Of a stretch of DNA of 64,000 nt, positions 28,799 through 46,094 are shown one piece after another (within the stretch, counting starts at the first letter, position 1; the number at the start of each line of letters is the position of its first letter). Source of the DNA: Pseudooceanicola algae (GTDB lineage Bacteria > Pseudomonadota > Alphaproteobacteria > Rhodobacterales > Rhodobacteraceae); contig NZ_CP060436.1 in assembly GCF_003590145.2 (NCBI RefSeq), positions 2,390,001 to 2,454,000 on the forward strand, in the 5' to 3' direction. Below the pieces are notes generated by a model, which was not told the origin of the DNA, searched no databases, and saw nothing but the letters and a program-made list of their open reading frames with translations. Position numbers and translations under genes: made by a program.

Positions 28799-30487
28799 AT
28801 GGCACATGATGGACAAGCGCCTGCGGGCGCGAGCACGGCAGTTCTGCCGGATCTTCTGAACCGTACTGCGGCGGCCCTCGGACCCGTGGATCACCTGCTG
28901 GAAACCGCGCGTGATCTGGTCCGGCTCAGCGTCCAGCGAGACGGCGTGGTCTCGGCGCGCGCGGTCGAGGCAGAGCAGACCGCCACCCATGGCCTTGCCT
29001 GGCTGGCCACCTATGTCTACGCGCTGCGCCGGATGCAGATCTGGGCCGAAAGCCTGTCGGCGCAGGGCCGCTTTGGCGAAATCGAACAGTTGATCCACCA
29101 GATCGCCTTCGGGGAATACCTCAACCAGATCCACGGCGGCATCCCGATGTCGCAGACCGAAATCCTGCGGCCACAGGACCTTGGCCTTGGCGCCGATCAA
29201 CTGGCGGCGATCTCCAACGACGCGGTGGAGCATTTGCGGGCCGAGGCCAACAGCCAGGTCGCGCGCAGCCGCCTGGCCGAGTTGCTGGTCGAACAGCAGG
29301 GCGTCGCCACCTATGGCGCCTCCGGCCTTGATGATGAACTCGAAATGATCCGCAACCAGTTCGCCCGCTACGCACAGGACCGGATCGCGCCCCATGCCCA
29401 TGGCTGGCACATGGACGATGCGCTGATCCCGATGGACGTGATCGAGGAACTGGCCGAGATGGGTGTCTTCGGCCTGACCATCCCGGAAGACTTCGGCGGA
29501 CTGGGCCTGTCCAAGGCTTCGATGGTCGTGGTTTCCGAAGAATTGTCGCGCGGCTATATCGGTGTCGGCTCCCTTGGCACCCGGTCCGAGATCGCCGCCG
29601 AACTGATCCTTTGCGGCGGCACCGAGGCGCAAAAGGAAAAGTGGCTGCCGGGCCTCGCCTCGGGAGAGATCCTGCCGACGGCGGTTTTCACCGAACCCAA
29701 TACCGGGTCGGACCTGGCCAGCCTGCGCACCCGCGCGGTCAAGGACGCGGCGGGGGATTACCGCATTACGGGCAACAAGACCTGGATCACCCATGCGGCA
29801 CGCACCCATGTGATGACAGTGCTGGCCCGCACCGACCCCGGCAGCACCGATCACCGGGGACTGTCGATGTTCCTGGCGGAAAAAACGCCGGGCAGCGAGG
29901 CCGATCCCTTTCCCACCCCCGGCATGACCGGCGGTGAGATCGAGGTACTCGGCTACCGCGGCATGAAGGAATATGAACTCGGCTTCGACGACTTCCACGT
30001 CAAGGGAGAGAACCTTCTTGGCGGCGAGGAAGGGCGGGGTTTCAAGCAGTTGATGCAGACCTTCGAGGCCGCCCGCATCCAGACCGCCGCCCGTGCCATC
30101 GGCGTCGCCCAGGCGGCGCTGGACACCGGGTTGCAATATGCCCAGGATCGCAAGGCCTTTGGCGGGCCGCTGATCCAGTTCCCGCGCGTTTCCGGCAAGC
30201 TCGCCATGATGGCGGTCGAGATCATGGTGGCGCGTCAGCTGACCTATTTCGCCGCCGGGGAAAAGGACAACGACCGGCGCTGCGATCTTGAGGCCGGCAT
30301 GGCCAAGCTGCTGGCCGCCCGCGTCGCCTGGTCCTGCGCCGACAACACGCTGCAGATCCACGGCGGCAACGGCTTTGCGCTGGAATACACTGCATCGCGG
30401 CTGCTGTGTGATGCGCGCATTCTCAGCATCTTCGAAGGCGCGGCCGAGATCCAGGCTCAGGTCATCGCCCGCCGTCTGCTGGGTTAG
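28799..30487 (+). CDS. mcd: (2S)-methylsuccinyl-CoA dehydrogenase
   Basis: The 562-residue acyl-CoA dehydrogenase has a normal C-terminal ACAD core (about 180-562) with IPEDFGGLGLSKASMVVVSE, AVFTEPNTGSDLASLRT and the C-terminal QIHGGNGFALEY signature. It is preceded by about 170 extra residues. That N-terminal extension and overall length are characteristic of Mcd, which oxidises methylsuccinyl-CoA to mesaconyl-CoA with FAD in the ethylmalonyl-CoA pathway for acetate and C1 assimilation. An unspecialised ACAD would be about 380-400 residues. It stands alone between a promoter and a terminator; other pathway genes are not in this window. Confidence 0.88.
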   Translation: MAHDGQAPAGASTAVLPDLLNRTAAALGPVDHLLETARDLVRLSVQRDGVVSARAVEAEQTATHGLAWLATYVYALRRMQIWAESLSAQGRFGEIEQLIHQIAFGEYLNQIHGGIPMSQTEILRPQDLGLGADQLAAISNDAVEHLRAEANSQVARSRLAELLVEQQGVATYGASGLDDELEMIRNQFARYAQDRIAPHAHGWHMDDALIPMDVIEELAEMGVFGLTIPEDFGGLGLSKASMVVVSEELSRGYIGVGSLGTRSEIAAELILCGGTEAQKEKWLPGLASGEILPTAVFTEPNTGSDLASLRTRAVKDAAGDYRITGNKTWITHAARTHVMTVLARTDPGSTDHRGLSMFLAEKTPGSEADPFPTPGMTGGEIEVLGYRGMKEYELGFDDFHVKGENLLGGEEGRGFKQLMQTFEAARIQTAARAIGVAQAALDTGLQYAQDRKAFGGPLIQFPRVSGKLAMMAVEIMVARQLTYFAAGEKDNDRRCDLEAGMAKLLAARVAWSCADNTLQIHGGNGFALEYTASRLLCDARILSIFEGAAEIQAQVIARRLLG

Positions 30488-31228: not shown

Positions 31229-32101
31229 TTATGCAAGCCCCAGCAGACGCGCCGCATTGCCCTTGATGATATCGGGGCGCAGTTCGTCCTTGATGGCGAT
31301 CTTTTCGAAATCGCCCAGCCAGCGTTCCGGGGTGATCATCGGCCAGTCGGAGCCGAACAGCACCTTCTTCTTCAGGATCGAATTGCAGTATTTCACCAGG
31401 ATCTCGGGGAAGTATTTCGGCGACCAGCCCGAGAGGTCGATATAGACATTTGGCTTGTGCTGGGCGACGGCCAGGGCCTCTTCCTGCCAGGGGAAGGACG
31501 GATGGGCCATGACGATCTGCATCTGCGGGAAATCGACCGCGACATCATCAAGGTATATCGGGTTGGAATACTTCAGCCGCATCCCGTTGCCGCCCGGCAT
31601 GCCGGAGCCGACCCCGGTCTGGCCGGTATGGAACAGCGCGATGGCGCCTTCCTCGGCAATGGCTTCGTACAGCGGATAGGCCATGCGGTCGTTGGGATAG
31701 AAGCCCTGCATCGTGGGATGGAACTTGAACCCCTTGATGCCGAAATCGCGGATCATGCGCCGTGCCTCGCGCACGCCCATCTTGCCCTTGTGCGGGTCGA
31801 TCGAGGCGAAGGGGATCAGCACGTCGGCGTTTTCGGCCGCCAGTTCGGCGACCTCTTCGTTGCGGTAGCGGCGATAGCCCGTCTCGCGTTCGGCATCGAC
31901 AGGGAAGATCACCGCGGCAATGTTCTGTTCGCGGTAATGCTGCGCCGTCACCGGCACGGTGGGCGGGTGGCTCCAGGGCGCGCGGAAATACTGTGCCATG
32001 GTGGCCTGCAAATCGTCGTAGCCGTCGTCGGCATGGCAACCGCAGGGCTCTTCGGCATGGGTATGGATGTCGATGGCACGGATCTTGTTCAGGTCGATCA
32101 T
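31229..32101 (-). CDS. amidohydrolase-family CoA-thioester hydrolase candidate (CouO-like)
   Basis: A 290-residue metal-dependent TIM-barrel protein of the amidohydrolase-2 (PF04909) class. IDIHTH gives metal ligands His13 and His15, GFKFHPTMQG and MAHPSFPW give the later histidines, and LFGSDWPMI gives the closing aspartate. Related enzymes hydrolyse beta-keto acyl-CoA in CoA-dependent p-hydroxycinnamate degradation (CouO in Rhodococcus, PhdC in Corynebacterium). It starts 9 bp after the ligase gene and is the last gene of the cluster. The assignment as hydroxyphenyl-beta-ketoacyl-CoA hydrolase rests on context plus family; decarboxylase-type amidohydrolases share the fold. Confidence 0.75.
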   Translation of the reverse strand: MIDLNKIRAIDIHTHAEEPCGCHADDGYDDLQATMAQYFRAPWSHPPTVPVTAQHYREQNIAAVIFPVDAERETGYRRYRNEEVAELAAENADVLIPFASIDPHKGKMGVREARRMIRDFGIKGFKFHPTMQGFYPNDRMAYPLYEAIAEEGAIALFHTGQTGVGSGMPGGNGMRLKYSNPIYLDDVAVDFPQMQIVMAHPSFPWQEEALAVAQHKPNVYIDLSGWSPKYFPEILVKYCNSILKKKVLFGSDWPMITPERWLGDFEKIAIKDELRPDIIKGNAARLLGLA

Positions 32102-32110
32102 CTCGGCCCC

Positions 32111-33898
32111 CTATAATTCGATGACAGCCGGGTCGCGCCCGGCATAAAGCCGTTCGACCAGCGCGGCGCGGCGGGTCAGCAGCTTGCGGATGTTGATATT
32201 GCCCTTCGCCGTCATCTCGCCCTCGGCCAGCGACGGCGGTTCGGCCATGACCAAGGCGCGGGCGATGCGGGTGGAACTGCCGGTCGATTGCGCCGCCAGT
32301 GCCGCCAGCCGGTCACGGATCGGGTCCAGAAGGGCCCGGTCGGAGAGGACCTCGCCCGCGGCGCCGCGCGCGCCCGCCGGGACCAACAACACGCCCAGGG
32401 CATCGCGGTCATGCCCTGTGATCACCAGATCCACGACCAGACCGTTCAGGGCCGTTGTCACCTGGCCGCGCAGGGCCGCGACGCGGACCCAGGTGCCCGA
32501 GGTCAGCTTGAAATCTTCCGAGATGCGGCCATCGAAGGCCAGCCCTCGGTCCGGATCGCCGGGATCGACGAAGCGCACCGCGTCGCCGGTGATCAGCCAG
32601 CCCTCGGCGTCAAAGCTTTCGGCTGTCTTGGCCGCCTGCCCGAGGTAGCCCGGCATGATGTTGGGGCCCTTGCAGCGCAGCTCGTACCGGCCCTCGTCTT
32701 CGGGGATCAGCTTGATCTGCGCGCCTGGCACCGGCACCCCGATGATGCCAGAGCGGCTGACCTTTTCATGCACGACCACGGTGCAGGGCGATGTTTCCGT
32801 CATCCCCCAGGAGGAAATGAACCAGGGCGCCTCTCCGGTTTCCGCGCGCCCCATGTCCTCGAGCCCGGTCCAGACCTCCTGCGGCAGCGAGGCCCCGGCG
32901 TAGAACAGGAAATCGAGATCCTCGAAGAACCGCGCCCGCAGGCCGGCATCCGCCTGCATCGCCGCCAGCAGGCGGGCATAGCCGACGGGGACGTTGAAGC
33001 TGAGCGTGCCGGTGACCATCGACAGGTTTTCGATGGTGCGGGCGAACAGCTTGTCCGTGGGCTTGCCGTCGTCGATATACAGCGCCCCGCCCCCCGACAG
33101 CATCATGTTGAAATTATGCGAGCCGCCGAAGACATGGTTCCAGGGCAGCCAGTCGACGATCCGGTGCACCTTCTGGCGCAGGACCGGGAAACAGGCGGCC
33201 AACTGGGCCTGGTTGACGCACATCATGCGGTGGGTCGTCATCACCGCCTTCGGATGGGCGGTCGAGCCGGAGGTGAACAGAATCTTGGCCAGCATGTCGG
33301 GCGTGACCCGGGCGCGGGCTGCATCGGCCGGCCCCGGCGGGTGGGTCGCGGCCCGTGCGACCGAGGTCGCGTCGCTGGTGCCGGGATCACTGGCCAGCAC
33401 CGGGATGCCCTGCAAGGCGGGCAGCGCCAGCGCCTCGCCGTAGCGGACGGCATCATCGACCCAGACCAGGACCGGGCGGGCAGTTTCGATCACATGGGTC
33501 AGCCGATCATGGGCACCGGGGATCAGGCTGTATTGCTCGGCCACCGAGGTCGAGACGAGGCCGACATATTGCGCCGCCAGCACCAGCAGCCCGTGATCGA
33601 CCGAATTGGCCGAGAGGCAGGCAATGATATCGCCCGGCCCGAAGCCCTGCGCCAACAGCCAGGCCCCCAGCCCGCGCACCCTGTCGCGGGCCTCGCCATA
33701 GGTCACCTCGCGCCAGCCCGCGCCCCGGCGTTCGGCCAGAAAGACCCGCTGCGGGGCCACGCTGGCCCAATGATCCAGCCAGTCACCCGTGACACCGGTC
33801 ACCGGGCCAAGGGCATTGCGGCTCTTGATTTCCAGCGCACCATCATCGCGCCGCAGGACGGCGACGGAATGGGGCGCGGCAGCGGTCGCCTGACGCAT
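32111..33898 (-). CDS. feruloyl-CoA synthase-type acyl-CoA ligase
   Basis: The 595-residue ANL-superfamily enzyme shows A3 FTSGSTAHPKAVMTTH, A5 SSWGMTETSP, then YELRCKGPNIMPGYLG and GWLITGDAVRF, with the GNINIRK element near the C-terminus. The sequence around the A3 loop and MMCVNQAQ is characteristic of the feruloyl-CoA synthase family (Fcs), which activates ferulate, p-coumarate and caffeate with ATP and CoA. It lies between the MarR gene and the amidohydrolase gene. Together they suggest hydroxycinnamate activation as the first committed step; other arylpropenoates are possible. Confidence 0.83.
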   Translation of the reverse strand: MRQATAAAPHSVAVLRRDDGALEIKSRNALGPVTGVTGDWLDHWASVAPQRVFLAERRGAGWREVTYGEARDRVRGLGAWLLAQGFGPGDIIACLSANSVDHGLLVLAAQYVGLVSTSVAEQYSLIPGAHDRLTHVIETARPVLVWVDDAVRYGEALALPALQGIPVLASDPGTSDATSVARAATHPPGPADAARARVTPDMLAKILFTSGSTAHPKAVMTTHRMMCVNQAQLAACFPVLRQKVHRIVDWLPWNHVFGGSHNFNMMLSGGGALYIDDGKPTDKLFARTIENLSMVTGTLSFNVPVGYARLLAAMQADAGLRARFFEDLDFLFYAGASLPQEVWTGLEDMGRAETGEAPWFISSWGMTETSPCTVVVHEKVSRSGIIGVPVPGAQIKLIPEDEGRYELRCKGPNIMPGYLGQAAKTAESFDAEGWLITGDAVRFVDPGDPDRGLAFDGRISEDFKLTSGTWVRVAALRGQVTTALNGLVVDLVITGHDRDALGVLLVPAGARGAAGEVLSDRALLDPIRDRLAALAAQSTGSSTRIARALVMAEPPSLAEGEMTAKGNINIRKLLTRRAALVERLYAGRDPAVIEL

Positions 33899-33910
33899 TG
33901 TTTTTCCTCC

Positions 33911-34432
33911 CTAGGGGTCCTCCCGGCTGACTGCGGCGGCCTCCATCCGCTGCAGAAGCCGCAATAGTTCCGCCCGCTCCGCGGGGTCGATGTCGGTCAG
34001 GATGCGGTCCTCGTGCTGATCAAGCGCGGCGCTGGCGCGGTCGCACAACTGCCGCCCGGCCCGCGTCGGGCGCAGCGCATAGGACCGCCGGTCCTTCGGC
34101 ACCCGGTGCCGCGCGATCAGCCCGGCCTGTTCCAGCGCATCGACGACGACCACGGTGTTGGAGCGTTCGACTGACAGGATCTGCGCCAGCTGGCTCTGGC
34201 GCAGATCGGTGTTGTCGCAGATCACCACCAGCGCCGAATAGGTCGAGATCCGCAGCCCGAAGCCCTCCAGCACCCGCGCCGCATCCGACTGGAACCTGTA
34301 ATAGGCCCGCTTCAGGCTGTACCCGACGAGGCCGCGCAGCCGTTGATCGCCGGCCATCCCCTCAACAGGTTCCGGGGATGTCATCGCCACGGATTCGCCG
34401 GGCGCCGCCCCATCCTTCCCCGCGCGGACCAT
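33911..34432 (-). CDS. MarR-family transcriptional regulator (CouR-like context)
   Basis: A 173-residue MarR protein: helices and winged helix at about 50-115 (RISTYSALVVICDNTDLRQSQLAQILSVERSNTV as recognition region, then VPKDRRSYALRPTRAG in the wing). Regulators of this family in CoA-dependent hydroxycinnamate operons (CouR) are released by the acyl-CoA product. Translation probably begins at ATG 34432 (TGATG overlap with the upstream gene) or at the GTG one codon before. It lies inside the operon it probably controls; two candidate operators are at 36074 and 39304. Confidence 0.88.
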   Translation of the reverse strand: MVRAGKDGAAPGESVAMTSPEPVEGMAGDQRLRGLVGYSLKRAYYRFQSDAARVLEGFGLRISTYSALVVICDNTDLRQSQLAQILSVERSNTVVVVDALEQAGLIARHRVPKDRRSYALRPTRAGRQLCDRASAALDQHEDRILTDIDPAERAELLRLLQRMEAAAVSREDP

Positions 34433-35211
34433 CACCGGAACTCCGGTGGCCGTTTTTCAAGAAAGGCGCGCAGTCCCTCTTCGGCATCCGCACTGGTCTG
34501 GGACAGGGCGGCGGCCAGGCTTTCGGTGAACAGGCCGTCACTGCGGGACATGTCGTTGATCCGGGCGATGGCGTGGATCATGATGTAGTTCGACAGGCTG
34601 GCATTGCGGGCGATCTTGCCCGCCAGGTCCAGGGCCAGGGGCAGCGCCTCTCCTTCGCCCACGGCGTAGTGGCACAGGCCCAGAACCAGCCCTTCTTCGG
34701 ACCCGTATTTGCGCCCTGTCAGCATCATCTCGGTCATCCGGTCCGGGCCGAGGATCCGCCCCACCCGCACCGTCGCGCCGCCGCCGACGAAGATACCGCG
34801 CCGCCCCTCGGGCAGCTGGAAGATCGTCGTGGGTTCGGCGATGCGTACATGGGTCGCCGTCGCCAGTTCCAGCCCGCCGCCGATGGCCGCGCCATAGATC
34901 GCCGAGACCACGGGCAGGCCGGAATACTGGATCTTGTCCATCACCGCGTGCCAGTTGCGCGAATGGCGCAGCACGCCTTCGGCTTCGCGCGCCACATGTT
35001 CGCTCAGGTCCAGACCCGAGCAGAAATGCCCCGCCGTTCCGGTCAGAACCACCGCCTTGACCCCGTCGGGCGGGGCGGAAAAGAAGGCCTCCAGCGCCGC
35101 CAGAAGCCTGTCGTTCATCGCATTGCGCTTGTCGGGGCGATCCATGGTCAGCACCGCGACCGGACCCTCGATCTGGATCTTCAGCACCTTGTCCTGCGGG
35201 GCATCGCTCAT
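34432..35211 (-). CDS. enoyl-CoA hydratase, crotonase family (CouM-like)
   Basis: A 259-residue crotonase. The oxyanion-hole loop GHFCSGLDLSEH (61-72) and GAAIGGGLELATA (107-119) are intact, and both hydratase glutamates are present: Glu115 in GGGLE and Glu135 in QLPEGRRG. Hydroxycinnamoyl-CoA hydratase-lyases lack the first of these, so simple hydration is favoured over retro-aldol cleavage to an aldehyde. ATG 35211 has AAGGATG 8 bases upstream; the longer form would start at 35232. Substrate by context: feruloyl- or coumaroyl-CoA. Confidence 0.82.
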   Translation of the reverse strand: MSDAPQDKVLKIQIEGPVAVLTMDRPDKRNAMNDRLLAALEAFFSAPPDGVKAVVLTGTAGHFCSGLDLSEHVAREAEGVLRHSRNWHAVMDKIQYSGLPVVSAIYGAAIGGGLELATATHVRIAEPTTIFQLPEGRRGIFVGGGATVRVGRILGPDRMTEMMLTGRKYGSEEGLVLGLCHYAVGEGEALPLALDLAGKIARNASLSNYIMIHAIARINDMSRSDGLFTESLAAALSQTSADAEEGLRAFLEKRPPEFR

Positions 35212-35268
35212 CGGGTCATCCTTGGGTCTCATGTTCAGTCAAAGGGCAGCGGCGCACCCTGTCAGGGG

Positions 35269-36036
35269 CTATTTCGGTTGCAGGCGCACGGCACCGTCAA
35301 GGCGGATCACCGTGCCGTTCAGCATCGGATTTCGGATGATCTGTTCGACCAGCAGGGCATAATCTTTCGGATCGCCGAAGCGCGGTGGGAAGGGGATCGT
35401 GGCAGCAATGCTTTCCTGCGCTCCTTCGGGCAGGCCGTCGACCATGGCCGTTTCGAACAGCCCCGGCGCGATGGCCATGACCCGAATGCCGGAGCGCGCG
35501 AATTCCCGCGCCGCCGGCAGGGTCATCGCCGCAATCGCCCCCTTGGAGGCCGCATAGGCCGTCTGCCCGATCTGCCCGTCCTGATAGGCCACAGACGAGG
35601 TATTGATCACCACGCCCCGCTCCCCGTCCGGCCCAAGAGGGGCCAGCTTTTGCATCAACCGCGCCGCATGGGACAGGGTGATGAAACTGCCGGTCAAATT
35701 GACCTCAAGCGTGCGCCGGAACGAGGTGATCGACAGCTCTCCGTCCCGGTTCACCACGCGGGCGGCGGTGCCGATCCCGGCGCAATTGACCAGAATGCGG
35801 GGCGCCTCGCCCAACCAGTCGGTAAAGGCATCGAAGGCCGCGCCGACCTCGGATTCATCCGAGACATCGACCTTGCAGGCCAGCCCGCCGATGTCTTCGG
35901 CAATGCGCTGCCCGGCGGGCAGGTTGAAATCAAAGATCCCCACCCTGGCGCCAAGGGCCGCAAGATGCCGGGCCGTCGCCTCGCCCAGCCCGCTGCCCGC
36001 GCCGGTGACCACGGCGCCGATCTTGTCGAATTCCAT
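35269..36036 (-). CDS. short-chain dehydrogenase (3-hydroxyacyl-CoA dehydrogenase type, CouN-like)
   Basis: A 255-residue SDR with N-terminal VVTGAGSGLGEATARHLA (Rossmann glycine motif), NCAGIG, catalytic Ser in NTSSVAYQ and catalytic YAASKGAI. It resembles 3-hydroxyacyl-CoA dehydrogenase type-2 (HSD17B10) in its IINTSSVAYQDGQIGQTAY block. It would oxidise the beta-hydroxy-acyl-CoA formed by the adjacent hydratase with NAD+. ATG 36036 is supported by AAAGGACAG; the frame continues upstream without a start signal. A candidate MarR operator lies 38 bp before it. Confidence 0.85.
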   Translation of the reverse strand: MEFDKIGAVVTGAGSGLGEATARHLAALGARVGIFDFNLPAGQRIAEDIGGLACKVDVSDESEVGAAFDAFTDWLGEAPRILVNCAGIGTAARVVNRDGELSITSFRRTLEVNLTGSFITLSHAARLMQKLAPLGPDGERGVVINTSSVAYQDGQIGQTAYAASKGAIAAMTLPAAREFARSGIRVMAIAPGLFETAMVDGLPEGAQESIAATIPFPPRFGDPKDYALLVEQIIRNPMLNGTVIRLDGAVRLQPK

Positions 36037-36073
36037 CGCTCTGTCCTTTCTGCCGGATATGCATACCGGACAA

Positions 36074-36092
36074 TTGATATGAGTTATAACAA
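36074..36092. promoter_or_regulatory. candidate MarR operator before the SDR gene
   Basis: TTGATAT-GAGTT-ATAACAA is an imperfect palindrome (6 of 7 half-site positions symmetric, 5-bp centre) in an AT-rich stretch of a GC-rich region. The same layout recurs at 39304. Confidence 0.5.
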
Positions 36093-36123
36093 AATTTTCG
36101 GCACGGCCCAACAGGTCCCCGCG

Positions 36124-37446
36124 CTAATAGAACAGCCGCAGCAGGCCGAGCGTTATGACCGGGAAAACCAGCATCAGCGCCACGCGAAGGATGTCGGAGG
36201 CGACAAAGTACATCACCGCCTTGTAGGTCTGGCCGATCGGCGTTTCGCGGTCCATCGAGTTGATGACGAACAGGTTCATCCCTACCGGCGGCGTGATCAG
36301 GCCCACCTCGACCACCACCAGCACGATGATGCCGAACCAGATGGCGAATTCTTCGGTGCTCATGCCGAAATCGAGGATCGACACGATGGGGAAGAAGATC
36401 GGGATGGTCAGCAGGATCATCGACAGGGAATCCATCAGGCAGCCCAGCACGAGGTAGAGCAACAGGATAATCACCAGCACGGTCCAGGCGCTGAAGCCCT
36501 GCGCGACGACCCAGTTGGAAAGCTCCTGAGGGACCTGCGTCAGCGCGAGGAAGCCATTGTAGAACCCGGCGCCCAGCACGATGAAGAAGATCATCGCGGT
36601 GGATTTCGCCGTGGCATAAAAGCATTCGAACCAGGCCCGGCCGCGCAAACCGCCATTGATCAGCGCGATGATCCCGGTGCCGAAGGCCCCGACCGCCGCG
36701 CCTTCGGTCGGCGTGAAGATCCCGGCGTAGATCCCGCCCACGACGGCCGTGAAGACCAGCAGCACGGGCCAGACATCGACCAGCGCCCGCAGGCGTTCGG
36801 GCCAGGGCACCGGCTGTCGTACCCCCGCGGCGTCCGGGTGCAGCCGCACGTAGATCGAGATCGTCAGGATATACCCGATGGCTGCAAGGATCCCCGGAAC
36901 AAAGGCCGCCAGGAACAGCTTGGCGATATTCTGTTCGGTCAGGATCGCGTAGATCACCAGGATCACCGAAGGCGGGATCAGGATGCCGAGCGTACCACCC
37001 GCGGCCAGCGTCGCGGTGGAAAACCCGCCCGAATAGCCATAGCGGCGCAGTTCCGGCAGGGCGACCTGACTCATCGTGGCAGCAGTGGCCAGCGAACTGC
37101 CACAGATCGCCCCGAAGCCCGCGCAGGCCCCCACGGCGGCCATGGCGACGCCGCCCTTCAGATGGCCAAGAAAGCTTTCGGCGGCCTTGAACAGCGCCTG
37201 GCTCATCCCGCCCAGGGTGGCGAACTGCCCCATCAGCAGGAACAGCGGCACAATGGACAGGGAATAGCTGGAAAAGGTCGAAAAGGTCTCGGATTTCAGC
37301 TTGGCCAGCGCGACGACAGTGCCCCCGGTGACCCAGCTGAGCCCGACGAAACCGACGACGAACATCGCCAGGCCGATGGGCATCCGCAGGAAGATCAGCA
37401 GCAAAAGCAGCGGGAAGGACAGCAATCCGATCAGAAAATCGCTCAA
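36124..37446 (-). CDS. TRAP transporter large permease (DctM type)
   Basis: A 440-residue protein with many hydrophobic segments, including GAICGSSLATAATMSQVALPEL and GGTLGILIPPSVILVIYA (conserved DctM motifs), and GLITPPVGMNLFVINS near the C-terminus. It is the ion-coupled transport subunit. The start is TTG at 37446, overlapping the DctQ stop by 4 bp. With DctQ and DctP it imports an organic acid; cluster context suggests a hydroxycinnamate or related aromatic acid. Confidence 0.9.
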   Translation of the reverse strand: MSDFLIGLLSFPLLLLLIFLRMPIGLAMFVVGFVGLSWVTGGTVVALAKLKSETFSTFSSYSLSIVPLFLLMGQFATLGGMSQALFKAAESFLGHLKGGVAMAAVGACAGFGAICGSSLATAATMSQVALPELRRYGYSGGFSTATLAAGGTLGILIPPSVILVIYAILTEQNIAKLFLAAFVPGILAAIGYILTISIYVRLHPDAAGVRQPVPWPERLRALVDVWPVLLVFTAVVGGIYAGIFTPTEGAAVGAFGTGIIALINGGLRGRAWFECFYATAKSTAMIFFIVLGAGFYNGFLALTQVPQELSNWVVAQGFSAWTVLVIILLLYLVLGCLMDSLSMILLTIPIFFPIVSILDFGMSTEEFAIWFGIIVLVVVEVGLITPPVGMNLFVINSMDRETPIGQTYKAVMYFVASDILRVALMLVFPVITLGLLRLFY

Positions 37447-38033
37447 TGATCCGCCCCTCCGTCGACCGGCGGCAGGACGCAGCCGGACAGCAGTTCGACC
37501 CAGCGGGCCAGAGCGACATAGACCGTCACCACCGCCGCCACGACCGCCGCCCCAAAGGAGGCCGCATAGGCCCACCAGACCGGGAACTGCAGCAGAAAGG
37601 TGGTCTCATTGTATTGCATCTTGCCGAGCATCCCGACGTAGAGCCGCCAGGCAATGACCACCATCACCAGGGCAAAGACCGCCTCCCAGAAGGCGACAAG
37701 GAACCGGTTGATGCCCCGCGGCAGGGTGGCGGTGAAGATATCCACCGTGGCATGGGCCCCGCTGATCTGCGTCAGCGGCAGAAAGGCAAAGATGGTGAAG
37801 GCAATGCCCGCCTCGACCAATTCGAAATCCCCGGTGATCGGTCCGATGCCCATGGTCAGCAGGCCTTGCGACAGGCCGGGAAACGCTCCCTGCGCCATGT
37901 CGGAATGCAGCAGCCCGTTCAGCGCCCGGCCCGTGACCGATGCTACAGTCAGCAGGATCAGCAGCGACAGGACCAGCCCGCCAAGCACGGCCATGAACCG
38001 CGACAGCGAAAGAAAGAAAGCGTGAATGCGCAT
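37443..38033 (-). CDS. TRAP transporter small permease (DctQ type)
   Basis: A 196-residue membrane protein with four hydrophobic segments and the DctQ pattern (FMAVLGGLVLSLLILLTVASVTGR near the N-terminus, then TLPRGINRFLVAFWEAVFALVMVVIA, and a final segment before LARWVELL). ATG 38033 has a G-rich upstream and is taken over one 8 codons earlier. It docks with DctM, whose TTG start overlaps its stop. Confidence 0.87.
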   Translation of the reverse strand: MRIHAFFLSLSRFMAVLGGLVLSLLILLTVASVTGRALNGLLHSDMAQGAFPGLSQGLLTMGIGPITGDFELVEAGIAFTIFAFLPLTQISGAHATVDIFTATLPRGINRFLVAFWEAVFALVMVVIAWRLYVGMLGKMQYNETTFLLQFPVWWAYAASFGAAVVAAVVTVYVALARWVELLSGCVLPPVDGGADH

Positions 38034-38104
38034 GTGCCCCCCGTGATCGGCGCGCAAGATTGCCCCGCGCGCCGACGGCCTTGTCGTTCAGAGATGTCCC
38101 GGGA

Positions 38105-39142
38105 TCACTCGCCGGAATAGGCGTCGATCAGGCTGCGGGCCTCGTCGACCATGGCCTGACCATCCAGCCCCTTGCCATCCATCTCTTCGATCCAGGAGGC
38201 TTCGACAGCGAAGCCCGCCTCCTTCCAGGGGGCGATCTGCTCCGGCGTCAGCTCGATGATGGTATTGCCCGCATCGACCGCGACCTGACGGCCGACTTCG
38301 TCGCCTTCGGCCATGACCGCACCCAGGGTAGCGGACAGGTCCGCACCCGAATTGTTGTCGATCACCGCCTTCAGATCCTCGGGCAGCCCATCATAGACCC
38401 CCTGGTTCATCGCCAGCATCAGGGTCGCGACATAGAGCGTCTCACCGGGGAATTCCGTGTGGTTTTCAACCAGCTCCGAGATCTTCAGCGAGGTCGTGAC
38501 CTCCCAGGGCAGGACCGTGGCGTCGATCACGCCCTTCGAAAGGGCCTCGGGCACGGCAGGCACGGGCATGCCGATCGGCGTCGCCCCCACTTCCGAGAAA
38601 TACTGGTTGGTCACCCGGCTCGGCGCGCGCAGCTTGACCCCGTTCAGATCTTCGATCGAGGCGATCGGATCCTTGGAATGGATCATGCCGGGGCCATGCA
38701 CCCAGAGCGCCAGCATCTTCATGCCCTGAAATTCAGTGTCCATGACGTTGGCCTCGGCGAAATCCCAAAACGCCTTGGAAGTCGCTTCCGGGCCGCTGGC
38801 GATGAAGGGCAGTTCGAAGACCTCGGTCGACGGGAACCGCCCCGGCGTATAGCCCGGCAGGGTCCAGACGATGTCTGCCACCCCGTCGATCACCTGATCT
38901 GCCAGTTGCGGCGGCGTGCCGCCCAACTGCATCGCGGGGAAATGCTGGATCTTGATCCGGCCATCGCTTTCCGCCTCGATCTTGTCCGACCAGACCTTCA
39001 GACCCTGCTTGGGCACGATGGCCTGTTGGGGCAGAAAATAGTGCATCCGTAGCGTGACGTCCTGAGCCATCCCCGCCACGGCGGACCCGGCAAGGATGGC
39101 GCAGGCGGCAAACCCGCGCAAAGCGGTCGTGAATAAAGTCAT
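38105..39142 (-). CDS. TRAP transporter substrate-binding protein (DctP type)
   Basis: A 345-residue precursor with signal peptide (MTLFTTALRGFAACAILAGSAVAG, cleavage after MAQ). The mature protein has the DctP fold: RMHYFLPQQAIVPKQGLKVWSDKIEAESDG, then the conserved KLRAPSRVTNQYFSEVGATPI block carrying the carboxylate-binding Arg. ATG 39142 has GGGAGG upstream. It is the first gene of the eight-gene run and sits 160 bp below a candidate operator. Confidence 0.9.
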   Translation of the reverse strand: MTLFTTALRGFAACAILAGSAVAGMAQDVTLRMHYFLPQQAIVPKQGLKVWSDKIEAESDGRIKIQHFPAMQLGGTPPQLADQVIDGVADIVWTLPGYTPGRFPSTEVFELPFIASGPEATSKAFWDFAEANVMDTEFQGMKMLALWVHGPGMIHSKDPIASIEDLNGVKLRAPSRVTNQYFSEVGATPIGMPVPAVPEALSKGVIDATVLPWEVTTSLKISELVENHTEFPGETLYVATLMLAMNQGVYDGLPEDLKAVIDNNSGADLSATLGAVMAEGDEVGRQVAVDAGNTIIELTPEQIAPWKEAGFAVEASWIEEMDGKGLDGQAMVDEARSLIDAYSGE

Positions 39143-39303
39143 GTCGTTCCTCCCGATATGCGGGCCTGACATGACGTCTCACTTCCTGCCTGGCAGCGCG
39201 CGCTGGGGGTGCCCCGCCAGTGCCGCATCTCGGACAGGCCCCCTGACGTCACCGGGCACCGCGTGCCGGTAGGATGCACTGCAGGAACCATGCCTGTCAA
39301 ATA

Positions 39304-39322
39304 TTGTTATGTGGTATAGCGA
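39304..39322. promoter_or_regulatory. candidate MarR operator before dctP
   Basis: TTGTTAT-GTGGT-ATAGCGA repeats the 7-5-7 layout of the site at 36074-36092 (one half-site TTGTTAT is identical to the other copy read in reverse). It lies in AT-rich DNA 162 bp before the dctP start and 81 bp inside the gap to the next gene. Confidence 0.45.
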
Positions 39323-39402
39323 AATGCATCGCGCCCGCCTTTGTCGGCGAGATGACAGCGGCCTTTCGGTCTCGTCGCGGCCCAGACGTGCCCCGAATCC
39401 CG

Positions 39403-39926: not shown

Positions 39927-40706
39927 CTAAACCCGCACGGCCTTCCCGGCCAGGGGGCGCAACACATGCGGCACCTCCGGATCATAAAGCGCCGAATCAC
40001 GAAAATCCGACACCTCCCCCAACACCGGCCCTACAAGGATCAAGGCCGTGCGGGTGATCTTCTCGGTGCGGACCTTGGCATGAATATCCGCCAATGTGCC
40101 GCGAATGAACGCCTGATCCGGCCAGCCGACCCGATAGGCCACCACCACCGGACAATCGGCCCCGTACCAAGGCGTCAGCTGGCGCTCGATCTCACGCAGA
40201 TTCCGCACCCCAAGATGGATCGCAAGGGTCGCGCGGCTGCGCGCAAAGGCCTCCAGCGTCTCATGTTCCGGCATCGAAGTGCTCTTCATGCTGACCCGCG
40301 TCAGCACGATGCTCTGGGCAATCTCGGGCACAGTCAGCTCCTGCCCCAACGCGGCAGCAGCGGCGGCATAGGCCGGCACGCCCGGAATGATCTCGTAGCT
40401 GATCCCATCGGCGCGCAGCCGCCGGATCTGCTCGGCGATGGCCCCATACAGCGATGGATCCCCCGAATGCACCCGCGCCACATCCTCGCCCCGCCCCCGC
40501 GCCGCCAGGATCTCGGCATGGGTCTCTTCCAGCGTCATGGGCGCGGTATCACGCACCAACGCGCCCGCCGGTGCCCCCGCCACGACCTCCGCCGGCACCA
40601 GACTACCGGCATATAGACAGACCGGGCAGGCACCGATCAGCCGTTGCGCCTTCAGGGTCAGCAATTCCGGATCCCCCGGCCCCGCCCCGATGAAATAGAC
40701 CTTCAT
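39927..40706 (-). CDS. cobM: precorrin-4 C11-methyltransferase
   Basis: A 259-residue SAM-dependent methyltransferase of the cobalamin branch: VYFIGAGPGDPELLTLKAQRLI at the N-terminus (SAM loop), VARVHSGDPSLYGAIAEQ (the DPSLYG active-site motif) and VLTRVSMKSTSMPEHE, specific for CobM/CbiF. It methylates C11 of precorrin-4. ATG 40706 is preceded by GGAGAGGG. It lies 90 bp downstream of the CbiG-CobJ gene with a hairpin repeat in the gap. Confidence 0.93.
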   Translation of the reverse strand: MKVYFIGAGPGDPELLTLKAQRLIGACPVCLYAGSLVPAEVVAGAPAGALVRDTAPMTLEETHAEILAARGRGEDVARVHSGDPSLYGAIAEQIRRLRADGISYEIIPGVPAYAAAAAALGQELTVPEIAQSIVLTRVSMKSTSMPEHETLEAFARSRATLAIHLGVRNLREIERQLTPWYGADCPVVVAYRVGWPDQAFIRGTLADIHAKVRTEKITRTALILVGPVLGEVSDFRDSALYDPEVPHVLRPLAGKAVRV

Positions 40707-40745
40707 GTGATCCCTCTCCGCAGGCTCTGCCCTGCCGTTTCCCTG

Positions 40746-40795
40746 TTCCAAATATCCCGGGGGGCCGCGCGTCCGCGCGGTGGGGGCAGCGCCCC
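40746..40795 (-). repeat. dispersed intergenic hairpin repeat (copy 1)
   Basis: Read on the minus strand directly after the cobJ stop: GGGGGCGCTGCCCCC hairpin, then CCGCGCGGACGCGCGG hairpin, then CCCCGGGATATTTGG. The same order (hairpins then GRNTATTT) is found after smc and, in the opposite orientation, after the GNAT gene before cobN. Confidence 0.7.
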
Positions 40796-42622
40796 CTACC
40801 CGATCTCAGACAGATCCCCGTCGATCCGCCGTGCATAGCCCCGCGGCGTGAACATGCGCGGCCCTTCCCCAAGGCGCGCCAGCCGTGAATTGGACGAGCC
40901 CACCAGCACTACGGTCAGCATGTCGACCTCATCGACCTGCAGGTCCTCCAGCCGCCGGTACAGGATCTTCTCCTCCGCCCGGCCAAGATTGCAGGCCAGC
41001 ATCACCGGCGTATCGGCGGGACGGTGCCGCAACAGCACATCCCGCGCTTCGGCCAGCAGGGTGCGACGGGTCCGCGACACCGGATTATAGAAGGCGATGA
41101 CGAAATCCCCTTCGGCGGCCGCGCGCAGGCGGCGCCTTATATCCTCGCGCGGGGTCAGCAGATCGCTCAGGGAAATGGCGCAGAAATCATGCCCCAGCGG
41201 CGCACCGGCCCGCGCCGCCGCTCCCTGAAGGGCCGAAATCCCCGGCACGCAGATCACTTCGGCCCGGCGGGCCGCAGCGCTGACGCCCTTCTCCTCCGCC
41301 CCCCGGTCGAGCAATTCGAACACCAGCGCCCCCATGGCATAGATCCCCGCATCCCCGGAACAGACCAGCGCCACGTCATACCCCTCGCCCGCGCGTTCCA
41401 GCGCGTAGCGACAACGGGCCTCTTCACCGCCCAGCGGGAAATCACTGCGGATCTTGCCCGCCGCCAGGGGGCCAAGCAGGTCGATATACAGTCCGTACCC
41501 TACAAGCTCCTCGGCCTCGGAAATCAAACGAGAGGCCTCTGGCGCCCGCCAGCTGGCCTGTCCCGGGCCGATCCCGACGACTGAAAGCCGACCGCGTGCA
41601 CGCCCGCGCAGTTCCGTAATCGGCGCCGGACACCGCGCCAGCGCCGCCGTGGCATGAGCCGTCTTGCGCTTGGGCACCACGAGGTCGCCCGTGTTGCCCG
41701 CCCCGGCCAGGGCCGCCCCTTCGGCGACTCCGTGACACCCTGTCTCGGCAAAGACCACTTCCGAGGGGGTGGCCAGCCGCCCCGCCTCGGCTTCAAGCGC
41801 CTCGGCCGCAAAAACCCGCAGCGGCAGATCCAGATGCGCGGCCAGAGCGTTCATCGCCCGTTCGTCGGCCTTGAGGTCAATCGTGTATAGCGCCCGGAGC
41901 GCACCCGCCGCGATCCCGGCCTGCCCCAGAGCCTCTTCCACGAGGCCTGCCAATTCCTCCTCCGGGCAATCGCGGGACGCCCCGAGGCCCAGTGTGAAAC
42001 AGCGCGGATGGAAGGTCAGCACCCCTGGTTCGGGCGGCCCCACCGTGGCGGCGATACGCACCGGCGCGCCGGTCCCCTGGCGGGGCAATGCGGCGAGCCA
42101 GCCAGCCTCGGCCAGCGCCTCGCCTTCCAACTGCGCCGGCGCGCCGGCGAGCAGGCGCGCCATGGCCTCCTGCGCCAAATCCGGCGTGCCCAGAACCCAG
42201 CCTTCGGGGGGGGCATCCAGGGCAAGCCCCAGCGTGACCTCTCCGGCGGTGGTCAGCGCGGCGACACCGCCCAGAAGGTCCGACAGGTCCCGCGACAACC
42301 GGTTCGCCCCGCGATGCCCGCCCAACAGCGGCACCACCACGGCGCCATCGTCACTGACAGAGATCACCGGCGGCTCGGCCCGCTTGTCGGCCAGCAGCGG
42401 CGCGACGGCCCGAACCAGGATTCCGCTGGCGCAGACCCCGATCACAGGACGCCCGGCCGCGAACATGTCACGCACGAACTCCAGCGCATTGCCAAAGGTC
42501 TGGTCCGCCCCGGCAACCCGCCCCTCGCGCCCGAACATCGGCACCCCAAGGTGATCGGCCAGCCGTCGGGCCACGGCCGCGCCGGCCCCGGAAACACACA
42601 GGACAACGGGTGTCACAGCCAT
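40796..42622 (-). CDS. cobJ: fused CbiG-like / precorrin-3B C17-methyltransferase
   Basis: A 608-residue two-module protein. Residues about 1-335 are CbiG-like: an N-terminal domain with VVPLLGGHRGANRLSRDLS (about 96-115) and a C-terminal CobE-like domain (about 205-330, LGLGASRDCPEEEL). Residues about 345-600 are CobJ: LSVVGIGPGQASWRAPEA, CSGDAGIYAMG, VPGISALQGAAARAGAPLGHDF and IAFYNPVSRTRR. CobJ contracts the ring by methylating C17; CbiG opens the delta-lactone and releases the two-carbon fragment in anaerobic synthesis, while the aerobic role of CbiG-like CobE is a carrier. The 5' end overlaps cobI by 10 bp. Confidence 0.92.
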   Translation of the reverse strand: MAVTPVVLCVSGAGAAVARRLADHLGVPMFGREGRVAGADQTFGNALEFVRDMFAAGRPVIGVCASGILVRAVAPLLADKRAEPPVISVSDDGAVVVPLLGGHRGANRLSRDLSDLLGGVAALTTAGEVTLGLALDAPPEGWVLGTPDLAQEAMARLLAGAPAQLEGEALAEAGWLAALPRQGTGAPVRIAATVGPPEPGVLTFHPRCFTLGLGASRDCPEEELAGLVEEALGQAGIAAGALRALYTIDLKADERAMNALAAHLDLPLRVFAAEALEAEAGRLATPSEVVFAETGCHGVAEGAALAGAGNTGDLVVPKRKTAHATAALARCPAPITELRGRARGRLSVVGIGPGQASWRAPEASRLISEAEELVGYGLYIDLLGPLAAGKIRSDFPLGGEEARCRYALERAGEGYDVALVCSGDAGIYAMGALVFELLDRGAEEKGVSAAARRAEVICVPGISALQGAAARAGAPLGHDFCAISLSDLLTPREDIRRRLRAAAEGDFVIAFYNPVSRTRRTLLAEARDVLLRHRPADTPVMLACNLGRAEEKILYRRLEDLQVDEVDMLTVVLVGSSNSRLARLGEGPRMFTPRGYARRIDGDLSEIG

Positions 42623-43320
42623 GGGTCTTCTCCCTTCGTGATGAGGATGAGCGAGAAATAGGGCGCCTCGCCCGGCGCATCGGCCAGGGGCAGGATGACC
42701 TCTCCCGGCAGGGTGGCGCGTTCGATGTAAAGCGCCTGTTTCATCAGGCCCATGCCCCCCAGAAGGGCACGGATGCGGCGCAGATGGCGGCCGACCTTCA
42801 GGATCACGATGGTATCCGCCCCCTCGCGCAACCTGGCACGCAGCGCGTCGTCCGGCAGTGGGCCCGGCAGGACCTCGAGCCGCTGGTTGCGCGCCACCAG
42901 GGCCCGCCCGGCCCGCGCCGCCGCCGCCGAGACGGAGGTCACGCCGGGCACGATCTGAACCGTGAAACGCGCCGCCAGTCGGGCCTGCAGATACATGAAG
43001 GAGCCATAGAACAGCGGGTCGCCCTCACACAGACAGACGACATCGCGCCCGTTTTCCAGCGCTTCCGCGATGCGGTCCGCGCCGCTGTCATAGGCCGCCT
43101 GCGCCGGGGCGCGGGCGGGGGTCATCGGGACCTCCATGACGATTTCCTCGACACCTTCGGGGATCAGGCCAGCGGCAATGGCACGCGCCATGCTCGGCTC
43201 CCCGGGTCGGGCAGGATAGGCCAGCACCTGTGCCGCTCTGATCAGTTCGGCAGCGCGCAGGGTGATCAGGCCTGGATCGCCGGGGCCAAGCCCGACGCCG
43301 TACAGCGTGCCGTTGCTCAT
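42613..43320 (-). CDS. cobI: precorrin-2 C20-methyltransferase
   Basis: A 235-residue methyltransferase: GVGLGPGDPGLITLRAAELI at the N-terminus, CEGDPLFYGSFMY (the family GDPLFYG) and VPGVTSVSAAAARAG. It adds the methyl at C20 of precorrin-2. The ATG overlaps the cobL stop by 4 bp, so translation is coupled. A longer open frame in the same phase extends to 43968 but would run through cobL. Confidence 0.93.
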   Translation of the reverse strand: MSNGTLYGVGLGPGDPGLITLRAAELIRAAQVLAYPARPGEPSMARAIAAGLIPEGVEEIVMEVPMTPARAPAQAAYDSGADRIAEALENGRDVVCLCEGDPLFYGSFMYLQARLAARFTVQIVPGVTSVSAAAARAGRALVARNQRLEVLPGPLPDDALRARLREGADTIVILKVGRHLRRIRALLGGMGLMKQALYIERATLPGEVILPLADAPGEAPYFSLILITKGEDPWL

Positions 43321-44516
43321 GATTTCGTCAGGCTCCATTGGGTGACCGGCATGGCGGGACGCCAGCCGCTGCGGTTGCCGATGGGCACCGCGCGTTCGAC
43401 CGAAATCCGCACGAGGTCCCCGCCATGCCGGGCCTGCAAGCCAGTCAGCAGCGCCTCGCTTTGCAGGGTCACCGCATTGGCAACCAACCGCCCGCCGGGC
43501 AGCAACGCGCCCCAGGCGACGGCAAAGGTCTCCTCGGAAAGACCCCCACCGATGAAGACCGCATCGGGGGCCTCCAGCCCTTGCAACGCCTCGGGGGCCT
43601 GTCCCGCCACCAGGTGCAGCCCGGGCGTGCCCAGCGACAGGGCGTTCTGCGCCGCCAGCGCGCGGCGGTCGGCGCGGGCTTCGATCCCGATGGCGCAGCT
43701 CCGGGGGGCCGCACGCATCCACTCCACGGCGACCGAGCCCGACCCGCAGCCGATGTCCCACAGCAGCGCCCCCGGCATGGGCATCAGCCGCGCCAGGGTC
43801 AGGGCGCGGACCTCGCGCTTGGTCATGGTGCCGTCGTGGGCGAAGGCTGCATCCGGCAGCCCCGGCACCCGCGTCAATACCAGCGCCTCCGGCCCCGCGA
43901 CACAATCCACGGCAAGGGTGTTGAAAGGCGGCACCGCAGCCTGCCAGCTTTCCGCCAGCCCGTCGCACCGCGCCTCTGACGCGCTGCCCATGTCCGACAG
44001 CACCGTCATCCGCGACGCGCCATAGCCACGCTGATTGAGCAGAGCGGCGATTTCACCCGGCGTGTCGCTTCCCGTGGTCAGGATCAGCAGCCGCGCACCG
44101 GGGGCGAAAAAGGGGACCAGCTGTTCGACGGGGCGTCCATGGGCGGTCAGCGTCTCGGTATCCGCCAGGGACCAGCCCATCCGGGCCGCAGCCAGTTGAA
44201 AGGCCGAGAGCTGAGGGTGGAAACAGATGCCATCGGGGATCGCCCGTGCGATCCGCGCGCCGACCGAAAACCACAGCGGATCGCCGGTTGCCAGCACCAC
44301 CACGCGCTGCCCTTCCAGCGCCTGCAACTGTGCGATCAGCGCATCAAAGGGACTGGGCCAGGCCAGCCGGCGCGCCGCGATCCCTTCGGTCAGCGCATGG
44401 TGACGCGCGCCGCCAAGGATGACCTCGGCGTTTTCGACCAGCGCCCGCACCGCTGGGGCAAGCGAGGCAAGACCTGCCGCCCCGATGCCGACCACGTGCA
44501 GCCAGGGTTCATCCAT
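43317..44516 (-). CDS. cobL: precorrin-6Y C5,15-methyltransferase (decarboxylating)
   Basis: A 399-residue fused CobL. The CbiE half (about 1-200) has VVGIGAAGLASLAPAV and LATGDPLWFSVGA. The CbiT half (about 210-399) has a SAM-dependent Rossmann block LLWDIGCGSGSVAVEWMR and VFIGGGLSEETF. It methylates C5 and C15 and decarboxylates the C12 acetate. It overlaps the CobH-fusion stop by 8 bp. Confidence 0.94.
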   Translation of the reverse strand: MDEPWLHVVGIGAAGLASLAPAVRALVENAEVILGGARHHALTEGIAARRLAWPSPFDALIAQLQALEGQRVVVLATGDPLWFSVGARIARAIPDGICFHPQLSAFQLAAARMGWSLADTETLTAHGRPVEQLVPFFAPGARLLILTTGSDTPGEIAALLNQRGYGASRMTVLSDMGSASEARCDGLAESWQAAVPPFNTLAVDCVAGPEALVLTRVPGLPDAAFAHDGTMTKREVRALTLARLMPMPGALLWDIGCGSGSVAVEWMRAAPRSCAIGIEARADRRALAAQNALSLGTPGLHLVAGQAPEALQGLEAPDAVFIGGGLSEETFAVAWGALLPGGRLVANAVTLQSEALLTGLQARHGGDLVRISVERAVPIGNRSGWRPAMPVTQWSLTKS

Positions 44517-46094
44517 CTGTCAGCCCCGAGGCCAGCGCATTCACCGCCGCCGAGGCCATTGCAGAGCCCCCCCGCCGCCCACGCAGGGTGACGAAATCAC
44601 AGCCCCGGGAATTCGCCGCCAGCTCTGCCTTGCTTTCCGCCGCGCCGACGAAGCCGACCGGAAAGCCGAGGATCAGCGCCGGTTTCGCCGCCCCCCCGTC
44701 CAGTGCCTCCAGCAGGTGGAACAGCGCTGTCGGAGCATTGCCGATGGCCACCACCGCGCCCTCCAGCCGGTCGCGCCAAAGCTCTACCGCCGCGGCAGAG
44801 CGCGTGGTGCCAAGACGGTCCGCGAAGTCCGGTGTGCGGGGATCGTTCAGCGTCACCAGCACGTCATTGCCGGGCAGAAAGCGCCGTATGATCCCGGCCC
44901 CGACCATCTCGCAATCACAGATCACCGGCGCCCCGGCGGCCAGCGCCGCGCGCCCCGCCGTATAGGCAGAAGGGGTAAAGGCCAGCCGGTCGGCGACCTC
45001 GATCATGCCGCAGGCATGGATCACCCGCTCGGCCAGCCGGTCGAGCCCCTCGGGGAACCGGTCCAGACGGGCTTCGCGCCGCACGGTCGCAAAGCTTTGC
45101 GCATAGATCGCGGCGGGGTCTTTCAGATAAGGGCGCATCGGGGCGGTCGTTTTCGTTCGGGGCTTCGGCGCCTTCATGGGAAGCGGTACGGCGGCCAGCA
45201 ACGCGGCTTCGTGACCCAGCCCCAGAATCCAGGCTTCTTCCCGTGCAACCCGGTCCTGTTCCTCGGGGCCAAGCTCCGGGCTGCCGGCAAACAGCGGGGC
45301 GAGCGACCCGGCGGCATCCAGCGCGGCAAAGGCCGCTGCCGAAACCCGGACCTGCGCGCTGTCCAGCACTTCGTCCTCGGCCTGCGCCGCCTGGGCCTGG
45401 CGTTGCAACAAGGAGGGGTAGATCTCGGCCAGGACCACGGGGGCGTCGCCCCTGGCAAGACCGGTATCGAAGGGCCAGATGGCCAGATCACCCGCCAGCG
45501 CGGGATCATTGCGCAGGGCGTGCAAGGCGGGCAGACCCAGGATCACCTGGCTGCCGACAGAGCCCGCGTAGGCCAGTTGCCAGACCGTCTTGGCGCCCTT
45601 CGCCTGACTGTCGGCGATGCGCCTTTCCGGCGGGTGATCGGTGCCATGACGGGCCTTGGCCGTCACCGGTATCTGCGGGAAGTCCCACTCCGACGAGCGT
45701 CCCCAGCAGGGACCGACCCCGTCGTATAACGCGTTGATCCGCGAGGCGACCTCGTAACGGTTGGAGCTGTTGTCTGCCCCGTCCTCGACCGCTTCGGCGA
45801 ACCAGCGGATCAGCGCAAGGCCGCTTGGCGTGCCGCAGATCCGTTCGGCAACGCCTGACGGGTAGCCAAAGGGGAAATCGAAACCGACCAACACCCGCCG
45901 ACCGGCCGCCCGCTCTCGCAGCAATAGCGCCTTCAGCGCCTTGATGGCGTCCGCCCGGGTGCGGTGATATTCAGGCGTCTCCGCTGCACCATCCCGCACG
46001 ACAGCGAACCAGATGGCATCCTTGGACGGCTTGGCCGGGCTCGGCGCCGAGCGTGCGGACCAGTCCACCGCGACATGGGTGTCAAAAAGGCGGG

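Follow-up and report, generated by a model that had tools for sequence, protein, structure and literature searches.

A predicted operon for hydroxycinnamate uptake and beta-oxidative deacetylation in Pseudooceanicola algae and a palindrome common to it and the Rhodopseudomonas palustris coumarate genes

A unit of eight genes in Pseudooceanicola algae (Rhodobacteraceae) was analysed within a window of 64 kb, i.e. the whole stretch from position 2,390,001 to 2,454,000 of contig NZ_CP060436.1. Judged from its genes and their relatives, the unit is very probably an operon under a CouR-type regulator, by which hydroxycinnamates are taken up and deacetylated in a beta-oxidation-like route. The genes lie on the minus strand (31229-39142) and run in the order dctP, dctQ, dctM, SDR (short-chain dehydrogenase/reductase), crotonase, MarR, ligase and amidohydrolase. 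This one-strand arrangement with short gaps or overlaps, given in a preliminary description of the region, agreed with the open reading frames (ORFs; gaps of -4 to 87 bp) and with Pfam, where all eight proteins scored above the cut-off of their own family (DctP, DctQ, DctM, adh_short, ECH_1, MarR, AMP-binding with AMP-binding_C_3, and Amidohydro_2).

In the proposed pathway a TarP-like tripartite ATP-independent periplasmic (TRAP) importer would bring a hydroxycinnamic acid, e.g. p-coumarate, into the cell, where the ligase would convert it to the cinnamoyl-coenzyme A (cinnamoyl-CoA). Hydration by the crotonase would give 3-hydroxy-3-arylpropionyl-CoA, oxidation by the SDR would give the 3-keto thioester, and cleavage by the amidohydrolase would release an aromatic acid and acetyl-CoA. 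Two palindromes, one before dctP and one before the SDR gene, would be bound by the MarR protein until the cinnamoyl-CoA releases it. The likeliest acid in this genome would be 4-hydroxybenzoate, formed from p-coumarate and passed by PobA to the protocatechuate branch. The reactions, substrate, inducer, product and DNA binding are all inferred from sequence.

The amidohydrolase and its occurrence among relatives

The most telling gene of the unit is that of the amidohydrolase. Its product is 73% identical over 291 residues to the amidohydrolase Atu1421 of an Agrobacterium fabrum locus (the genome compared is taken to be that of strain C58, with the gene at 1.418 Mb), where the gene sits with SDR, ligase, crotonase and MarR homologues in the SpG8-1b layout. 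His12, His14, His160, His202 and Asp254 (numbering of the first row) were invariant in seven aligned amidohydrolases, and in the amidohydrolase tree the window protein and Atu1421 fell in different large groups. A beta-oxidative route has been published for the alphaproteobacterium A. fabrum, in which the genes of this locus are assigned to joining the substrate to CoA, hydrating and dehydrogenating it, and cleaving the beta-keto thioester so that vanillate is formed (PMC7797058; here and below, papers are cited for the accessible parts of their text). The same source names Atu1421 a beta-keto-thiolase, but judged by its similarity to the window protein it is an amidohydrolase.

The preliminary description had regarded the combination of genes as unusual for this group, a view that the comparison with relatives did not support. 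Among 149 genomes of the family, one per genus, the amidohydrolase had a match at E<=0.001 in 55 and at no less than 70% identity in 43 (hand count), and in 34 of these 43 both a crotonase (at least 43%) and a ligase (at least 37%) were encoded within 10.5 kb of it, regions cut by contig ends being scored as misses. An SDR (at least 45%) was present in 22 of the 34 linked sets, and 18 had both the SDR and a TRAP large permease (at least 33%). The hydratase-lyase HCHL (query from Acinetobacter) was found at 50% identity or more in 2/149 genomes, the next best match being 39%. Given 43 amidohydrolases, 34 of them linked, against two hydratase-lyases, annotation that expects vanillin or 4-hydroxybenzaldehyde in this family may well be wrong. 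The gene set is common among relatives, and the apparent oddity becomes the rule for the family. Besides, the beta-oxidative route of A. fabrum and a TRAP importer in the R. palustris coumarate locus (PMC3610893) had already been published.

Across the class, 59 of 385 genomes had an amidohydrolase match at E<=1e-20. A set of named loci was taken as the best 80 of 557 ranked by likeness to a Rhizobium protein, a homologue being a match that covers half of the query; 42 of these 80 carried homologues of the ligase, crotonase, SDR and amidohydrolase, and 22 of the 42 had a TRAP large permease too. Loci of Stappia, Nisaea and Aliiruegeria share the gene order of the window. With a missed dctQ or a repeated dctP tolerated, the order dctP-(Q)-dctM-SDR-crotonase-MarR-ligase-amidohydrolase was seen in 10 of the 151 amidohydrolase loci compared, window included, and such conservation is more than chance. 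The amidohydrolase tree and the counts of linked marker genes given below omit three duplicates (L060, L158 and L263) and two far rows (L074 and L111).

Among the closest known systems, A. fabrum SpG8-1b (Atu1415-1417, 1421 and 1422) shares its enzymes and regulator with the unit (ligase 39% to Atu1416, hydratase 47%, SDR 49%, amidohydrolase 73%, MarR 29%), but that locus has another gene order, a vanillate demethylase inside it (PMC7797058), and no homologue of the TRAP genes of the window in the 19.9 kb compared. The R. palustris cou/tar locus has a TRAP importer, the PRK08150 crotonase CouA, the ligase CouB (40.5% identical to the window ligase) and the palindrome before tarP and couA, whereas no amidohydrolase lies in the 19.9 kb compared, a distant SDR (28%) is about 10 kb from couA, and the route is described as non-beta-oxidative (PMC3610893). 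The cou system of Rhodococcus jostii RHA1, likened here by description only, is actinobacterial and also forms the aromatic acid by an amidohydrolase, CouO, as its last step. A plasmid locus of Rhizobium sp. Q54 (LR606150.1) has an SDR, a ligase, a crotonase, a MarR gene, an annotated 4-hydroxyphenyl-beta-ketoacyl-CoA hydrolase and TRAP genes, but the order is divergent and the TRAP genes are distantly similar (large permease 34%). The palindrome of the window type was not found in the A. fabrum (best 5.0 bits) or Rhizobium Q54 (best -0.7 bits) loci. No paper on the unit in Rhodobacterales was found by a literature search that was little aimed at Roseobacter and had most subscription journals outside its scope; the accessible part of one Roseobacter paper deals with 4-hydroxybenzoate and mentions neither coumarate nor ferulate (PMC12442348).

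The amidohydrolase family also occurs beside biotin carboxylase and acetoacetate-CoA-ligase-type genes on plasmids of Rhizobium leguminosarum (82%), Pseudomonas putida YC-AE1 (59%) and Rhodococcus JS3073 (56%), and these loci look like aryl-ketone carboxylase operons. HpeF of the Rhodococcus hpe pathway, which is 95% identical to CouO, has been placed in an aryl-ketone pathway (PMC9618137). Its proposed substrate is an intermediate of the same kind, reached there by carboxylation of an acetophenone. The same aroylacetyl-CoA thus seems to be reached by two different routes upstream.

Some loci had other neighbours. In Alloyangia pacifica the amidohydrolase gene comes after TRAP and tannase/feruloyl esterase genes, which speaks for the proposed pathway. 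On a plasmid of Phaeobacter sp. G2 (L100:3460-10873) the set is found without adjacent TRAP genes, beside genes for a Na+-translocating NADH-quinone reductase, and is preceded by a PRK08294-type flavin-dependent (FAD) monooxygenase gene and a MarR gene. An annotated acyl-CoA dehydrogenase of Rhizobium sp. Q54 (L101:2388-3992) had matches of at least 40% in 36 loci, itself and the duplicate L263 included, and matched no NCBIfam model at 1e-40.

The importer and the aromatic product

The best PDB match of the window DctP was 7nr2 (E 1.5e-116), followed by 5im2, 5iga, 5i5p, 7nsw and 7nrr, and the group matched at E<=7e-84. R. palustris TarP is almost the protein of 7nqg (E 6.6e-220), and its matches to 7nr2 and the rest of that group were weaker. 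We take 7nr2 and its kin to be aromatic-acid (phenylpropanoid) binding proteins from one study. By these matches the window DctP belongs with the crystallised TarP-type binding proteins, and cinnamate binding is predicted. In this genome of 4.09 Mb the DctM model had 24 matches, so the presence of a TRAP operon is by itself nothing special.

The genome encodes a PobA (674 bits), with matches to pcaH (64%) and pcaG (48%) within 2.5 kb of its gene, and no gentisate dioxygenase was found in it at E<=1e-60. From this, the likeliest flow would be from p-coumarate through 4-hydroxybenzoate to protocatechuate. It is unlikely, though several features of close relatives point that way, that the unit instead handles meta-hydroxycinnamates and delivers 3-hydroxybenzoate to a gentisate or protocatechuate branch. 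Linkage was scored with three 3-hydroxybenzoate-type markers (gentisate dioxygenase, the 3-hydroxybenzoate 6-monooxygenase PRK08163 and the MobA-like PRK08294). Of the 42 loci (window included) whose amidohydrolase is at least 78% identical to that of the window, 11 were linked to these and two to 4-hydroxybenzoate/vanillate/protocatechuate-type genes, compared with five and 23, respectively, among the 99 loci at 65-78% identity (Fisher p = 8e-5, in a test blind to kinship); eight rows of the amidohydrolase tree at or below about 65% identity were placed in neither group. Linkage to 3-hydroxybenzoate/gentisate genes is more frequent in near relatives than in loci farther away, which include those of the A. 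fabrum kind. On the tree, the markers changed seven times among 41 labelled rows, the minimum in 200 shuffles being 10, and in locus L088 the palindrome is also found before the gentisate dioxygenase gene. However, both marker types are missing from 29 of the 42 near loci, the MobA-like label is a guess within a subfamily named phenol 2-monooxygenase, and the strict markers (gentisate dioxygenase or PRK08163 type) were found at only eight loci in all, six of them at 84% identity or more. Furthermore, in Aliiruegeria lutimaris (L190), a near relative, the linked genes are pobA and pcaHG, and the genome of the window has pobA with pcaH/pcaG and lacks a gentisate dioxygenase at the threshold given above.

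Gentisate dioxygenase and fumarylpyruvate-hydrolase-like genes were observed adjacent to the set (crotonase-MarR-ligase-amidohydrolase) or to its TRAP genes in L083 (2910-5945), L084, L086, L088 and L089, in the first two of which 3-hydroxybenzoate 6-monooxygenase genes were present as well.

The crotonase and the choice between routes

The window crotonase matched PRK08150 (NF006013) with 334 bits against a cut-off of 232, and both catalytic glutamates are in place (Glu122 and Glu142 counted from the upstream ATG, which are the Glu115 and Glu135 reported before if Met8 is the start). It is 47% identical to Atu1417, 46% to CouA, 45% to the chain of 4izb, which we take to be DmdD, and 23% to HCHL. 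Atu1417 and CouA are likewise in NF006013 above cut-off, whereas the HCHL control is in NF006588 (PRK09120), and the Glu/Glu pair was found in 114 of 115 aligned crotonases, CouA included, the sole exception being the HCHL control (Ser/Glu). A hydratase-lyase identity of the window crotonase was rejected on these three grounds, i.e. family, residue pair and low identity. HCHL was not found in the genome of the window, where the best match (32%) was a PRK05862 enoyl-CoA hydratase. As described previously, no aldehyde dehydrogenase gene is present, at least among the genes scanned, eight of the unit and nine beside it; a genome-wide search was not made. Together with the 73% identity to the A. 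fabrum amidohydrolase, the presence of pobA and pcaHG, the CouR-like regulator and the two operator-like sites, these results lend good support to the earlier proposal of a beta-oxidative deacetylation that ends in the amidohydrolase and is served by a TRAP importer.

The two-glutamate argument of the preliminary description separates the crotonase from hydratase-lyases, but it is not decisive alone, since CouA has the same pair. Given that CouA is equally close and is described as aldehyde-forming, the crotonase alone leaves the route undecided. Nor can the crotonase tree (rows below 220 residues and the same three duplicates omitted) choose between CouA and Atu1417, because both fall outside the 61-row group of the window (support 92); 4izb formed a long separate branch, and on a DmdD identity the tree is equally silent. 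The route is decided by the amidohydrolase and the dehydrogenase rather than by the crotonase. PDB entry 3hin was deposited as a putative 3-hydroxybutyryl-CoA dehydratase, but its identity to CouA from R. palustris PS3 is 98.4%.

Several observations weigh against the proposed operon. In addition to the absence of both characterised crotonases from the group of the window, the window DctP is not a close orthologue of R. palustris TarP (27% identity), and the window ligase reached 625 bits with PRK12582, where the NCBIfam cut-off is 777. Nine of the 43 family amidohydrolases were not linked to both crotonase and ligase, and 12 of the 34 linked sets had no SDR homologue of at least 45% within 10.5 kb. 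Finally, CouA of R. palustris has been described as a hydratase/aldolase with aldehydes as its products (PMC7997838). The last two points, together with the 46% identity to CouA and the common NCBIfam subfamily, would fit a route of the CouA type, in which the crotonase both hydrates and splits the thioester, the aldehyde so formed is the substrate of the SDR, and the amidohydrolase has some other role. Such a route is nevertheless improbable here, given that the amidohydrolase is linked to crotonase and ligase in 34/43 genomes of the family and that one genome has a 3-hydroxyacyl-CoA-dehydrogenase-type gene inside the set; the near-universal Glu/Glu pair also argues against it, although CouA itself has that pair. 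It is scarcely credible that the crotonase is a DmdD-type methylthioacryloyl-CoA hydratase in a unit for dimethylsulphoniopropionate (DMSP) or another acrylate, since its 45% identity to the 4izb chain, although hardly below the CouA and Atu1417 values, stands against an aromatic-type ligase, a CouR-like regulator, a TarP-like binding protein and the amidohydrolase in the same unit.

The dehydrogenase-type gene mentioned above, which also speaks for the beta-oxidative reading, lies between the crotonase and ligase genes of Bradyrhizobium macuxiense (L162:6190-7167); its product scored 294 bits with PRK07066, and every model matched was below cut-off. A 4-hydroxybenzoate hydroxylase gene (PRK08243 above cut-off) is found downstream.

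Regulator, predicted operators and flanking genes

The best PDB match of the window MarR protein was 6c28 (CouR; E 1.6e-16), followed by 3fm5 and 5cyv, and it is 36% identical over 162 residues to the product of a MarR gene that adjoins the cou locus of R. palustris and that we take to be couR. With a matrix built from 21 sites of 21 other loci, the sites of the window and of R. palustris being excluded, the two predicted operators O1 and O2 (Table 1) were the only sites above noise in the 64 kb; the third-best site had 3.7 bits and the maximum in 12 resampled windows was 5.0. Resampled loci gave two sites of at least 12 bits in 1.1 Mb. The pattern TAGTTAT-n5-ATAACTA was present with at most two mismatches in 21 of the 35 upstream regions of near-type loci, window included, against 0.04 expected, a count that is not independent because these regions were also the source of the pattern, and seven of the 35 lacked the palindrome even at four mismatches. 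Weaker palindromes, of 19 bits in Afipia birgiae and 22 bits in Bradyrhizobium macuxiense, precede the genes of the pathway. The operator letters were not found in the accessible part of the CouR biosensor paper, which gives length and GC content.

In R. palustris PS3 (G743) the palindrome was found before tarP, before couA and before the MarR gene taken as couR. These positions fit the published control of transport and enzyme genes by CouR (PMC3610893). The palindrome is also present 55 bp upstream of an amidohydrolase gene that lies 2.6 Mb away from these sites (L211:9683-10617, at 4.55 Mb). An unlinked amidohydrolase gene of the CouO/Atu1421 kind was found in 14 of 16 Rhodopseudomonas genomes (L205-L211 and L277-L284), and in 14/14 of those carrying it the palindrome is 48-62 bp upstream. 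New here are this palindrome, common to the unit of the window, to the R. palustris tarP, couA and couR-like genes, and to the unlinked amidohydrolase gene, and the more frequent linkage of the nearest relatives to 3-hydroxybenzoate genes.

Tentatively, and with slightly less than even confidence, the palindrome may mark a CouR-type regulon common to Rhodobacterales and the R. palustris group that includes the unlinked beta-keto-CoA hydrolase, so that the R. palustris amidohydrolase would be in the coumarate regulon, CouA would be mainly a hydratase and beta-oxidation would make up all or part of the pathway. The anaerobic p-coumarate pathway of R. palustris is described as going via 4-hydroxybenzaldehyde, without beta-oxidation (PMC3610893, PMC7997838). 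The aldehyde reported could come from a retro-aldol reaction of the hydroxy-thioester. A simulation predicted possible substrate channelling with no detectable accumulation of aldehyde (PMC7997838), for which a beta-oxidative step would equally account. Against such a regulon, the palindrome might serve another MarR protein. The palindrome offers a sequence handle by which the regulon can be traced from family to family, and with it the chemistry assigned to the R. palustris coumarate pathway can be tested directly.

Table 1. Genes of the unit and predicted operators, in positions of the 64-kb window.
Feature	Position	Strand	Basis and remarks
O1, predicted operator before dctP	39300..39326	.	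26.1 bits
dctP-type TRAP solute-binding protein (TarP-like), first gene	38105..39142	-	PF03480
dctQ, TRAP small permease	37443..38057	-	PF04290; start uncertain
dctM, TRAP large permease	36124..37446	-	PF06808; TIGR00786 above cut-off; 4-bp overlap with dctQ; start chosen by analyst (longest ORF starts at 37575)
O2, predicted operator before SDR gene, in dctM-SDR gap	36070..36096	.	32.4 bits
SDR, proposed aryl 3-hydroxypropionyl-CoA dehydrogenase	35269..36036	-	PF00106; GxxxGxG and Ser/YxxxK motifs; start chosen by analyst (longest ORF starts at 36111)
Crotonase, proposed hydroxycinnamoyl-CoA hydratase	34432..35232	-	NF006013 (PRK08150); Glu122, Glu142
MarR regulator, CouR type	33911..34435	-	Best PDB match 6c28 (CouR); 4-bp overlap with crotonase gene
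Feruloyl-CoA-synthase-type CoA ligase	32111..33898	-	PRK12582 nearest, below cut-off
Amidohydrolase, proposed aroylacetyl-CoA (beta-keto) hydrolase giving aromatic acid and acetyl-CoA	31229..32101	-	PF04909

A scan for sigma-70 promoter-like sites found none where 1.1 were expected, and 10 terminator-like sites, against 5.2 expected, were left unused. The unit is adjoined by a divergent gene for an acyl-CoA dehydrogenase of 562 aa (28799-30487), which among the loci compared had a homologue of at least 40% only in L088 (75%). Upstream of the unit, at 39927-46098, lie cobalamin biosynthesis genes (cobM, a cobJ domain, cobI and a precorrin-8X methylmutase domain).

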